Origin: Candidatus Desulfobacula maris
GTDB lineage: Bacteria > Desulfobacterota > Desulfobacteria > Desulfobacterales > Desulfobacteraceae
Length of the DNA: 38,216 bases
Direction of reading: 5' to 3'
Assembly: GCA_014383445.1 (NCBI GenBank)
Contig: JACNHV010000305.1
Coordinates: forward strand, 1 to 38,216
Shown here: in pieces, positions 18,789-21,792 of the stretch
Layout of the letters: each line of letters starts with the position of its first letter
Numbering within the stretch: the first letter of the stretch is position 1
Program-made: the position numbers and the translations under genes
Notes under the pieces: model-generated
The model's database searches: none
What the model saw: the letters and a program-made list of their open reading frames with translations, nothing else
What the model was told of the DNA's origin: nothing

Positions 18789-19523
18789 TTAAGGAAATAA
18801 AAGTTTTTCTTCAACCCTTTTTATATCGCAAGGCAGATCAATTTCCAGAGAATCGTATTGGGTGATAACCACCTTGATTCTATAGCCGAATTCCAGCACT
18901 CTTAATTGTTCAAGTTTTTCAATATGCTCACAGGTTCCTGTGGGAAGTGCAACCAAAGTGTCCAGAAAACTTTTTTTGTAGGCGTAAAAGCCAAGGTGCT
19001 TGTAAAAATCCGCCTTTGTCTCCGGGTCCCTTGGATAGGGGATCTGGGCCCTTGAAAAATACAGGGCAAATCCATTGTTATCAAAAGTCACCTTTACATC
19101 TTTGGGATCAGTGATTTCTCTTTTATCTGTTATCTTGAATGCAAGGGTTGACATGACAAGGTCAGGATCATTAGAAAAGGGTGAAATCATTTCATCAATG
19201 GTCAAGGGATTAAACACGGGCTGGTCTCCCTGGATATTGACAACAATGTCATCTGGCCCAAGGTTTAAAATATCAGCAGTCTGAGCCACCCTGTCAGTTC
19301 CGGAACGGCATTCCTCGGATGTCATCACGGCAATACCGCCAAAACCTTCAACTGCCTTGAATATCCGCTCATCATCCGTTGCCACGATTGTTTTTGAAAC
19401 AGCAGGTGATTTTTGAGTCTGTTCATACACCCTTTGTATCATAGGCTTTCCTGCAACAAGGGCCAAAGGTTTTCCTTTAAACCGGCTTGATCCGTACCTG
19501 GATGGTATTACCGCAATTGTCAT
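18789..19523 (-). CDS. kdsB: CMP-Kdo (probably CMP-Kdo8N) cytidylyltransferase
   Basis: 244 aa, close to the usual ~248. It activates the octulosonate as CMP-sugar in the cytoplasm. Hallmarks: AVIPSRYGSSRFKGKPLA at the N-terminus (CTP binding), TSEECRSGTDRVAQ, the metal-site region VVNIQGDQPV, and FYKHLGFYAYKKSFL towards the C-terminus. It begins 11 bases after kdnB in the order kdnA-kdnB-kdsB. In Shewanella the KdsB encoded with kdnA/kdnB prefers the 8-amino sugar (Kdo8N); the same preference is inferred here from context. Specificity-determining residues were not identified by eye. Confidence 0.92.
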   Translation of the reverse strand: MTIAVIPSRYGSSRFKGKPLALVAGKPMIQRVYEQTQKSPAVSKTIVATDDERIFKAVEGFGGIAVMTSEECRSGTDRVAQTADILNLGPDDIVVNIQGDQPVFNPLTIDEMISPFSNDPDLVMSTLAFKITDKREITDPKDVKVTFDNNGFALYFSRAQIPYPRDPETKADFYKHLGFYAYKKSFLDTLVALPTGTCEHIEKLEQLRVLEFGYRIKVVITQYDSLEIDLPCDIKRVEEKLLFP

Positions 19524-19534
19524 GGGTTTCTCAT

Positions 19535-20602
19535 TTACATTTTAAGAAACAAGGATCTGGCTTTTTCCCTTGTCATGATAGTTTTCCAGTCTTTTCCCAG
19601 GCAGTTTTCCCATAATGGATCAAGGCCAAGGGCTACGGTGATCATTTTTTCAATCTGATCTTCTTTAAGATTTTTAACAAGACCTCTTGGCAGTTCAATC
19701 CGGCATTTTTCCATCATGGTTCGAAATTCTTTTACCCCTTCAGGATAGAATTCATCCAGATAATCAAACACGATGCAGCATCCGATTCCATGATGGGTAC
19801 CAAGTACATAGGAAAGCCCATAGGAAAGTGCATGGCAGGCGCCGACCTGGGAATAGGCAATGCTCATGCCTCCGAAAAAAGAGGCCATCATTAGCTTGTC
19901 GTCGCGATCAGGATGGTCATCTATAAAAACCTGCCGGCAAAGATCAAGAGCCTTTTCTCCATAGGCTTTGGAGAACTCATTCAGATAGGTGCCTTCAAGG
20001 GATTCAATACAATGGATATAGCAGTCCATGCCCGTATAAAAGTGCTGATCCTTTGGCACATTTTTGATCAGCTCAGGATCAAGAACCACCTGGTCAAACA
20101 CTGTATAGTCAGAGTTAAGGCCGAGTTTTTTTTCAGGGCCTGTCAGAACAGCTGTTCTTGAAACTTCTGCACCCGTTCCCGAAAGGGTGGGAACGGCCAT
20201 GTGGCAGACAGCAGGATTTTTAATCAGGTCCCATCCCTGATAAAGAGTGGAAGACCCGGAATTTGTCAGCATAAGGGATATGGATTTGGCAAGGTCCATG
20301 CTGCTGCCGCCTCCTATACCGATGACGGCACAGGGAAGACTTGACCTGTACGCTTTTACTTTAATGGTCAATTCATCAACATATTTTGTTTTGGGCTCAT
20401 CATCCACGTTAACCCATAAGAGCATATCATTGTCATGCAGGGGTATCCTTTTTTCCAAAGGTTTTCCTTTGAAAACATCATCTGTGACAAACACAACCCA
20501 TGCATCATCATCTTCACGTTGTTTTTCTATAATTTCATCCAGCTGTGAAAAACAGCCTCTTCCAAATATGACGTTTGGAACCAGCTTAAAGTTTCTAAAC
20601 AT
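19535..20602 (-). CDS. kdnB: Kdo 8-oxidase, iron-containing alcohol dehydrogenase family (KdnB)
   Basis: 355 aa. Group III metal-dependent alcohol dehydrogenase: NAD-binding [16 protein letters not shown] at 95-110, [15 protein letters not shown], and metal ligands fitting the family spacing, Asp193 and His197 (GMDCYIH), His257 (ACHAL) and His271 (HHG). The dinucleotide fold is in the first half and the helical metal domain in the second. In Shewanella KdnB oxidises Kdo at C8 to an aldehyde that KdnA aminates. Here it lies between kdnA (2 bases upstream) and kdsB, the same set of partners, which makes a general fermentation alcohol dehydrogenase unlikely. The enzyme name depends on this context. 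Confidence 0.85.
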
Positions 20603-20604
20603 GT

Positions 20605-21792
20605 TTATCCTTTAAATGATTTTATTATGGCCTGAATTCTGTTTTCAATATCTTGTTTTGACCATGACAGCATGATCTGCATGGAAATGGTTCGTTTCAT
20701 GATATTATCAGATTCTTTAAGTACAATGTTTGTATAATCCCGTAGATTGTCTGCAAGCTCAACAGCAAGTTTAGCAGACCGTTTCATCTCTTTTAAGTGG
20801 TGCCATTTTTTATAATAATGCCAGTTATTGTCATACCAGTAAGGACACCCCACTTTGTTGTCAGCAAGGTTTTTAGCTATCTGGCGGGCCCGTTCTTGCG
20901 TGGGTAGAAAAAAACTTAAAAAGGTTGCTGAATCACCCTTTGCATCGGGGATATATCTGAAACTGACTCCAGGCAGGTCTGCCATGGCATCTTTAATGGC
21001 AAGCTTGTTTTTTCTCTGGGTGGAAAGGATCTGATCCAGTTTGTTCAACTGGGCAAGTCCTACTGCCGCGTTCAATTCACTGATCCTGTAATTGGTCCCA
21101 ATAATGGGGTGGTCATCAGCCCCCCGGTCAGGGCCGCCTAAGTGGTCATGCCCATGGTCGGCAAACTGGTCCGCTTTTTCATATACGTCTTTGTCATCAG
21201 TAATAATACCGCCGCCTTCCCCGCAGGTAACAGTTTTTACCGCGTCAAAGGAAAAACATCCTGACGTCCCAAAGGTTCCAAGGGCTTTGCCTTGATAGCT
21301 AGCCCCTAAAGACTGGCATGCATCTTCAATAAGAATCAATCCTTTTTTATCACAAAATATTTTAATCTCATCAATCCTTGCCATGGCACCGCACATGTGT
21401 ACCGGAACTACAGCACGGGTTTTTGAGGTGATCACATCTTCAAGCCTGTCAGGATTAAGACACAGAGTCTCATCAATTTCTGAGAAAACAGGAATGGCAC
21501 CGACATTGATTATGGCTTCAAACGTAGCAACAAAGGTAAAGCCAGGCACAATGACTTCATCTCCGGCCCCTATACCGCAGGCGGTAAGGGCTGTGCAAAG
21601 GGCAGCCGTGCCGCTGGAACACAGGTGGCTGTATTTGGCACCTGTAATTTCACAAAGTTTTTTTTCAAACTCAAGGGCCTTGAAATGTCCGTTTCTGACC
21701 CCTTCAAATCCATACCTGAAAAGAACACCCGTTTCAAGAACATCGGCCACTTCTTTTTTTTCCTCATCACCAAATATTTCAAACCCAGGCAT
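20605..21792 (-). CDS. kdnA: 8-amino-3,8-dideoxy-octulosonate aminotransferase (KdnA), DegT family
   Basis: 395 aa. PLP-dependent sugar aminotransferase: [12 protein letters not shown] (PLP phosphate contacts), [25 protein letters not shown] with Asp157 for the pyridine nitrogen, and the Schiff-base Lys186 in [15 protein letters not shown]. It would aminate the C8 aldehyde of oxidised Kdo, giving Kdo8N. An excellent ribosome binding site (AGGAGGA) lies just upstream of ATG 21792. It is the first gene of the minus-strand unit kdnA-kdnB-kdsB-lpxL-ligase-methyltransferase. Without its partners it would only be called a DegT/DnrJ/EryC1/StrS aminotransferase; the adjacency of the Fe-ADH and kdsB is the basis for the specific name. 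Confidence 0.85.

Follow-up and report, generated by a model that had tools for sequence, protein, structure and literature searches.

The window analyzed here is a stretch of 38,216 nucleotides from Candidatus Desulfobacula maris, which constitutes one entire contig of an assembly of 4.85 Mb (400 contigs, 94.2% complete). On its minus strand, three open reading frames (ORFs) fill positions 18789-21792. An earlier note on this DNA had named them kdnA, kdnB and kdsB, and both names and coordinates were found to be right. The three genes are tightly packed, with 2 bases between kdnA and kdnB and 11 bases between kdnB and kdsB. In nearly all Gram-negative bacteria, lipid A is joined to the remainder of the lipopolysaccharide (LPS) by 3-deoxy-D-manno-octulosonate (Kdo). 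Judging from the sequences, this operon very probably makes the cytidine monophosphate (CMP)-activated form of 8-amino-3,8-dideoxy-D-manno-octulosonate (Kdo8N), which would replace some or all of the Kdo of the inner core. The genome contains dsrA (588 bits), which identifies the host as a sulfate reducer by gene content.

In the proposed pathway, the ordinary route (kdsA) would supply Kdo, KdnB would oxidize its C8 to the 8-aldehyde (8-oxo-Kdo) and KdnA would aminate this product to Kdo8N; in Shewanella, glutamate is the amino donor of KdnA. KdsB would then couple Kdo8N to CMP, and the replacement of Kdo would be completed by WaaA transferring Kdo8N to the lipid A precursor. The genome encodes kdsA outside the window (378 bits, above the family cut-off) and two waaA genes, and thus both a Kdo-precursor enzyme and Kdo transferases. 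The earlier note had placed Kdo8N in lipid A. The prediction of Kdo8N is supported by the sequences, but its location would be the inner core attached to lipid A rather than lipid A proper, and any effect on resistance in the host organism is speculation.

Identity of KdnB and KdnA

We compared the products of kdnB and kdnA to proteins of solved structure. KdnB matched KdnB of Shewanella oneidensis (5k8c) with 540 bits and the entry 3rf7 with 535 bits, and the best entry that is not a KdnB reached 78 bits. KdnA matched the S. oneidensis Kdo8N transaminase KdnA (5k8b) with 539 bits, and the next entry reached 165 bits. Both proteins align with the Shewanella enzymes almost from end to end (residues 1-393 for KdnA). 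Because these scores far exceed those obtained with other families, we consider the names KdnB and KdnA settled. The same scores rule out that the two proteins are enzymes of other sugars or alcohols, and the closest relatives by sequence are not those that the earlier note had listed as evidence against its reading. Among the NCBIfam models listed, no cut-off was passed by KdnB or KdnA, and the curated families identify them only as an iron-containing alcohol dehydrogenase (Fe-ADH) and a DegT aminotransferase.

The metal-ligand positions of the dehydrogenase are intact, as the earlier note had stated. Residues D193, H197, H257 and H271 of KdnB, which we take to be the Fe-ADH metal ligands, align with Escherichia coli FucO and are invariant across 13 KdnB sequences. 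In the same 13 sequences, a GGGSxxD motif and an Asp aligned with the Asp of FucO VTDK are invariant as well; these are presumably NAD-binding features. The KdnA alignment contains a SFDAVKT...GEGG stretch, which we assume to hold the lysine that binds pyridoxal phosphate (PLP).

The claim that the trio corresponds to the CMP-Kdo8N set of Shewanella was supported by phylogenetic trees, in which all three proteins group with their Shewanella counterparts, and by score for KdnB and KdnA. The Shewanella loci that we examined have an identical gene order, and their KdsB (that of S. oneidensis was left out) fall in the same clade and carry the residue signature described below. Chance is excluded because of the scores, the conservation of the order kdnA-kdnB-kdsB in other loci and the retention of KdnB across the genus. 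On sequence grounds, the cassette belongs to the Kdo8N pathway that is already known.

The cytidylyltransferase KdsB and its residue signature

The KdsB of the window scores 215 bits against TIGR00466 (cut-off of 155 bits). It is encoded by the only gene of the genome above this cut-off, and two further matches reach only 32 and 20 bits. Another member of the genus with a one-contig genome (G419) likewise presents one kdsB above the cut-off and two waaA genes. Since the single kdsB above the cut-off is of the kdn type, Kdo8N would be expected as the ulosonic acid of the inner core.

Four residues, Q101, M124, D224 and E227 (window numbers), were found together in 64 of 67 kdn-type KdsB and in none of 12 others, as counted on the same rows that were used to choose these columns and with identical sequences counted once. 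The rows share ancestry and are not independent events; those of loci L214-L219, L224 and L305-L334 are only partly independent in that the seed Shewanella recurs among them. The truncated KdsB of L056 was left out of the count of 67 and of the KdsB trees, and that of G256 was left out of the comparison. The ordinary KdsB of E. coli belongs to the same family and retains the conserved aspartates D100 and D229 (window numbers), but its residues corresponding to Q101 and E227 of the window are E101 and G233, respectively. Q101 directly follows a conserved aspartate and E227 lies two positions ahead of another. A passage of a study on the KdsB of Aquifex describes D95 and D219 as binding Mg-A (PMC3149649). 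Matching motifs rather than an alignment, we infer that these are the aspartates next to Q101 and E227. With one acidic residue lost at the first of these sites and another gained at the second, the enzyme may be suited to a sugar bearing an ammonium group. By its family score, its clade and its signature, the KdsB of the window is predicted to make CMP-Kdo8N.

Genomes with several KdsB allowed a comparison within the same genome. In all four Thiomicrospira-type genomes (G422-G425), the signature is present in the kdn-linked KdsB and absent from the second, ordinary KdsB (G422 has a third, weaker match outside of the comparison). Desulfopila (G428), G039, G053 and G210 each possess one KdsB with the signature and one without, and G077 possesses two without. 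For Pseudomonadota, we used the best KdsB match of 30 genomes out of 362 matching. The signature was found in five of the 30, four of them from the genomes with a canonical KdnB (4/4, seed included) and one from genome G719; the remaining 25 lacked it. Finally, in a hand-picked set of 42 genomes, a signature KdsB was present in 30 of the 34 genomes with a KdnA-type gene and in none of seven inspected out of the eight without KdnA. The four exceptions among the 34 are G105, G001 and G077, whose KdsB lack the signature, and G275, in which kdsB was not found.

Distribution, phylogeny and surroundings of the kdn genes

The named KdnB sequences that we sampled are the best 80 of at least 565 matches and are biased toward near relatives. 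The nearest belong to records labelled Desulfobacula, Desulfospira, Desulfobacter, Deltaproteobacteria and Desulfobacteraceae. In this sample, KdnB is accompanied nearby by both KdnA and KdsB in 31 loci, by KdnA only in 24, by KdsB only in one and by neither in 24, some of the contigs being short and ending near KdnB. The order kdnA-kdnB-kdsB was observed in 31 of the 80 loci, including those of Shewanella, Thiomicrospira, Thiomicrorhabdus and Sulfurivirga. The cassettes of the last three genera resemble that of the window in order and in their signature KdsB. In the four Thiomicrospira-type genomes examined, however, waaA follows kdsB and the second, ordinary KdsB is encoded elsewhere, unlike in the window.

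KdnB is widespread among the relatives of the host. Within the genus, 23 of 26 genomes contain it with at least 79% identity, three of them in partial form and one with two in-frame stops. At a threshold of 55% identity, it was found in 28 of the 395 genomes of the phylum sample (one partial), among them 14 of the 17 that belong to the same order, the window's own included. The interrupted copy (G398:C342:3315-4343) has two in-frame TGA codons, which may reflect decay or a sequencing error. Cultured sulfate reducers with KdnB include Desulfospira joergensenii, Desulfofustis glycolicus, Desulfopila aestuarii and Desulfoprunum benzoelyticum. Among Pseudomonadota, 6 of 398 genomes presented a match at an E-value of 1e-60 or better, seed Shewanella included, four at 62-66% identity and two at 42-43%. 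KdnA co-occurs with KdnB in all 29 genomes with a canonical KdnB from the hand-picked set. Linkage is not universal: in family f25, kdnB is found apart from kdnA. Of the four genomes of this family that carry kdnA and kdsB on one contig, three have the two genes at a distance of about 1 kb (G052, G281 and G088) and one has them far apart (G014).

More distant KdnB-like genes (40-44% identity) lie near an aminotransferase gene at six loci: L337 (5549-10324), L044 (1871-6898), L037, L038, L207 and L336. The aminotransferase is 40% identical to KdnA in L337 and 29-32% identical in the others. The pair of L337 is followed by genes for NeuB (251 bits) and for a cytidylyltransferase (110 bits); NeuB also occurs in L044, and a cytidylyltransferase in L207. 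These gene neighborhoods suggest that the terminal carbon of a nonulosonic acid is aminated by such loci.

In the KdnB tree, Shewanella, Thiomicrospira, Thiomicrorhabdus and Sulfurivirga form one group (support of 100) nested within a mostly Desulfobacterota-labelled group supported at 98, with inner supports of 84-86. The KdnA tree is concordant: the gammaproteobacterial group is supported at 99 and the surrounding forks at 84-91. These two trees were drawn by a quick method that includes no bootstrap, as was the WaaA tree below, and they were rooted by distant homologues on long branches. A more careful tree of KdsB placed the kdn-linked gammaproteobacterial sequences in one group (99/98) within a group formed with the window and other Desulfobacterales (97/96), and set apart the ordinary KdsB, from E. 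coli as well as from these Thiomicrospira-type genomes (100/99). A single gammaproteobacterial clade of kdn-linked and ordinary KdsB yielded an approximately unbiased test p-value (p-AU) of 0.0502, so that transfer of KdsB is favored but not formally proven. These trees are most simply explained by a transfer of the whole cassette from Desulfobacterota to the gammaproteobacteria concerned, with the sampling aimed at Desulfobacterota and Pseudomonadota only. One kdn trio (L069) lies on a contig labelled Cloacimonadota and was placed among Desulfobacterota in the trees; its label may be a binning error, or the trio may have been transferred.

The genome of the host encodes two WaaA, whereas Shewanella (G420) encodes one. 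The second gene (L036 2237-3529; contig C182) is divergent from msbA. Its product shares 29% identity with the WaaA of the window, and the two belong to separate clades of the WaaA tree. The clade of the second WaaA includes the sole waaA found in G134, G333 and G232, all of which lack kdnAB, and genes of this clade lie beside an ordinary-type kdsB in G134, G333 and G428. We also considered whether the window waaA belongs to the lineage of the waaA located inside Thiomicrospira-type kdn operons. It does not: those genes join the gammaproteobacterial WaaA (support of 82). Two waaA genes were found in 19 of the 20 Desulfobacterota examined with canonical kdnAB (one of the two places in G429 is in pieces, and G186 has a single waaA), in one of the five examined without KdnA (G101) and in one of two genomes in which the trio contains another Fe-ADH. 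This pattern is weak evidence for a role of the second WaaA in Kdo8N metabolism, as waaA counts are confounded by kinship. As a lead, the window waaA may serve Kdo8N and the second waaA Kdo, but with a single kdsB both would depend on one and the same supplying enzyme.

The same-strand run of genes continues beyond kdsB as the earlier note had described, into an lpxL-like gene that starts 99 bases past kdsB and a gene for an O-antigen ligase-like protein (Table 1), which differs from Shewanella. The nearby waaA lies about 10 kb from the kdn trio, on the opposite strand and within lptF-lptG-waaA-lpxK. Although contiguous with the trio in the window, lpxL and the ligase gene can be ruled out as a conserved part of the kdn operon: lpxL is near the kdn genes in only seven of the 80 named loci, always on the opposite strand, and beside lpxK-waaA-lptG-lptF in three of them. 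A scan for promoters and terminators was not usable (21 promoter-like sites versus 18.9 expected and 10 terminator-like sites versus 6.1 expected).

Elsewhere in the window, genes for an ArnC-like glycosyltransferase, a GtrA-like protein and a PMT-type transferase are consecutive at 10088-12842; a lipid-linked sugar decoration of LPS is a possible function. A Mito_fiss_Elm1-domain protein is encoded at 13737-14687, with glycosyltransferase genes around it. The family match of lpxK begins only at residue 55 of its ORF, so the true start of this gene may be later than position 8781.

Table 1. Predicted genes of the kdn region and of the LPS genes discussed in the text
Feature	Position	Strand	Description and evidence
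kdnA	20605-21792	minus	395-aa ORF, predicted PLP-dependent DegT-family aminotransferase; DegT_DnrJ_EryC1 292 bits (Pfam)
kdnB	19535-20602	minus	355-aa ORF, predicted metal-dependent Fe-ADH-family enzyme; Fe-ADH 94 bits (Pfam)
kdsB	18789-19523	minus	244-aa ORF, predicted kdn-type CMP-sugar synthetase; CTP_transf_3 187 bits (Pfam)
lpxL-like lipid A acyltransferase	17784-18689	minus	Lip_A_acyltrans 177 bits; PRK08419 205 bits, under the cut-off of 248
O-antigen ligase / Wzy-like membrane protein	16566-17780	minus	Wzy_C 59 bits
Class I S-adenosylmethionine methyltransferase	15822-16538	minus	Methyltransf_23 84 bits; last of the same-strand run
lptF and lptG, LPS export permeases, upstream of waaA	5264-7525	plus	TIGR04407 242 bits and TIGR04408 284 bits, both above cut-off
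waaA, predicted Kdo or Kdo8N transferase, one of two in the genome	7547-8845	plus	PF04413 193 bits; NF004388 369 bits, under the cut-off of 438
lpxK, lipid A 4'-kinase	8781-9983	plus	TIGR00682 205 bits, above cut-off

Oxygen, alternative readings and implications

Several observations weigh against the production of Kdo8N by this operon. The assembly is fragmented and incomplete, and a second kdsB could be missing from it. Three KdsB encoded beside kdnB lack the signature, with E101 and no E227 (L029, L031 and L032, from genomes G105, G001 and G077). Conversely, G719 has a signature KdsB and no KdnB in its genome at the threshold used; neither kdnA nor kdnB was found within the 15 kb surrounding this kdsB (L335, 7698-8477). 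These cases indicate that the signature is not necessary for a kdn-linked KdsB and may not be sufficient either. A further difficulty is oxygen. The PDB name of 5k8c is 3-deoxy-alpha-D-manno-octulosonate 8-oxidase, and Gattis et al. (2013) reportedly found that the Shewanella KdnB relies on a metal and on O2 in place of NAD(P)+, and that polymyxin sensitivity is increased in kdn mutants. The orthologue is present here in a sulfate reducer, an organism that would be expected to live in the absence of O2. If the Shewanella enzyme truly needs O2, a sulfate reducer may lack the product in anoxic growth. The pathway would then be silent without oxygen and active only upon exposure to it, and the usual sugar of the LPS would be Kdo, which a KdsB active on both Kdo and Kdo8N would couple to CMP. 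The signature KdsB of G719 would fit an enzyme serving Kdo, although this genome has a second KdsB match beyond the best match that was compared.

We nevertheless regard such an O2-dependent, normally silent pathway as unlikely in this organism. The retention of KdnB across most genomes of the genus and of the order is hard to square with a rarely used function, and the NAD-binding features are invariant in the 13 KdnB compared. In addition, four loci of other Desulfobacterota (L183, L184, L186 and L187) share with the window a KdnA-type aminotransferase and a signature KdsB but differ in their Fe-ADH, which is only 30-32% identical to KdnB and falls outside of the KdnB group in the tree. The aminotransferase of L187 has 5k8b as its best PDB match (344 bits, versus 194 for the next). 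Its Fe-ADH, the only one of the four that was searched, matches an NAD-dependent methanol dehydrogenase with 296 bits, compared to 118 for 5k8c and 132 for 3rf7. Since this Fe-ADH is closest to an NAD enzyme, C8 oxidation may be carried out there by an ordinary enzyme of the NAD type. In L187, waaA follows the trio. An NAD(P)-linked KdnB is favored because of these two lines of evidence, the invariant NAD-binding features and the sister lineages that pair KdnA with another Fe-ADH, and we infer that in the sulfate reducer the electrons of KdnB would not go to O2 but to NAD(P)+ or some other acceptor.

An inner core that mixes Kdo and Kdo8N is a variant of the proposed pathway and does not exclude it. 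KdsB would activate both sugars and the two WaaA would use one each. The presence of two waaA genes alongside one kdsB above the cut-off points in this direction, as do the separate clades of the two WaaA and the ordinary-type kdsB adjoining members of the second clade. The four Thiomicrospira-type genomes and Desulfopila, however, retain a separate ordinary KdsB, which suggests that one enzyme serves both sugars poorly, and we treat the mixed core as a possibility that is rather doubtful. Much less credible is a different ulosonic acid as the substrate of KdnA and KdnB, such as a nonulosonic acid found in the O antigen or in a glycan. The distant homologues located beside NeuB and a cytidylyltransferase, most clearly in L337, give this reading some basis. 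The window pair, in contrast, closely matches the Kdo enzymes in score and adjoins kdsB, and a NeuB match was found in none of the 22 window proteins scanned (up to 23.5 kb; 12 of them by Pfam). We consider this last alternative highly improbable and retain the synthesis of CMP-Kdo8N as the most likely function of the operon.

We lean only slightly toward a broader scenario that combines the trees with the comparison of the dehydrogenases. The cassette would have arisen in Desulfobacterota with a KdnB linked to NAD(P)+ rather than to O2, and would have been passed to Shewanella and Thiomicrospira together with a Kdo8N-selective KdsB. In some lineages, another NAD-dependent branch of Fe-ADH would have taken over the oxidation.

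A passage of a structural study describes Kdo8N as a hallmark of the genus Shewanella (PMC6357163), and an excerpt of a review states that it distinguishes this genus (PMC3210612). Another review passage describes Kdo8N as confirmed in other species, citing two papers on Shewanella and one on Acinetobacter ATCC 17905 (PMC4052302). A gene annotated as kdnB in Leptospira appears, next to neuA genes, in the gene table of a further study (PMC8510873), and a passage on Pseudoalteromonas infers a Kdo8N-type oligosaccharide from an annotated Kdo8N cytidylyltransferase (PMC9966250). Given these mentions of Acinetobacter, Leptospira and Pseudoalteromonas, Kdo8N is not undisputedly confined to Shewanella. 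At the level of titles and passages, with most subscription papers outside our reach, we found neither Kdo8N nor kdnAB reported for Desulfobacterota. Nor did the literature searched mention how broadly sulfate reducers carry the cassette, the signature of KdsB, the replacement of the Fe-ADH or the conflict that arises if KdnB uses O2.

If Kdo8N is present across sulfate reducers, important sediment bacteria would carry a differently charged inner core, and the reported requirement of KdnB for O2 would not be general. The KdsB signature provides a sequence lead to users of Kdo8N. Several cultured strains hold the kdn genes, which makes the prediction directly testable.

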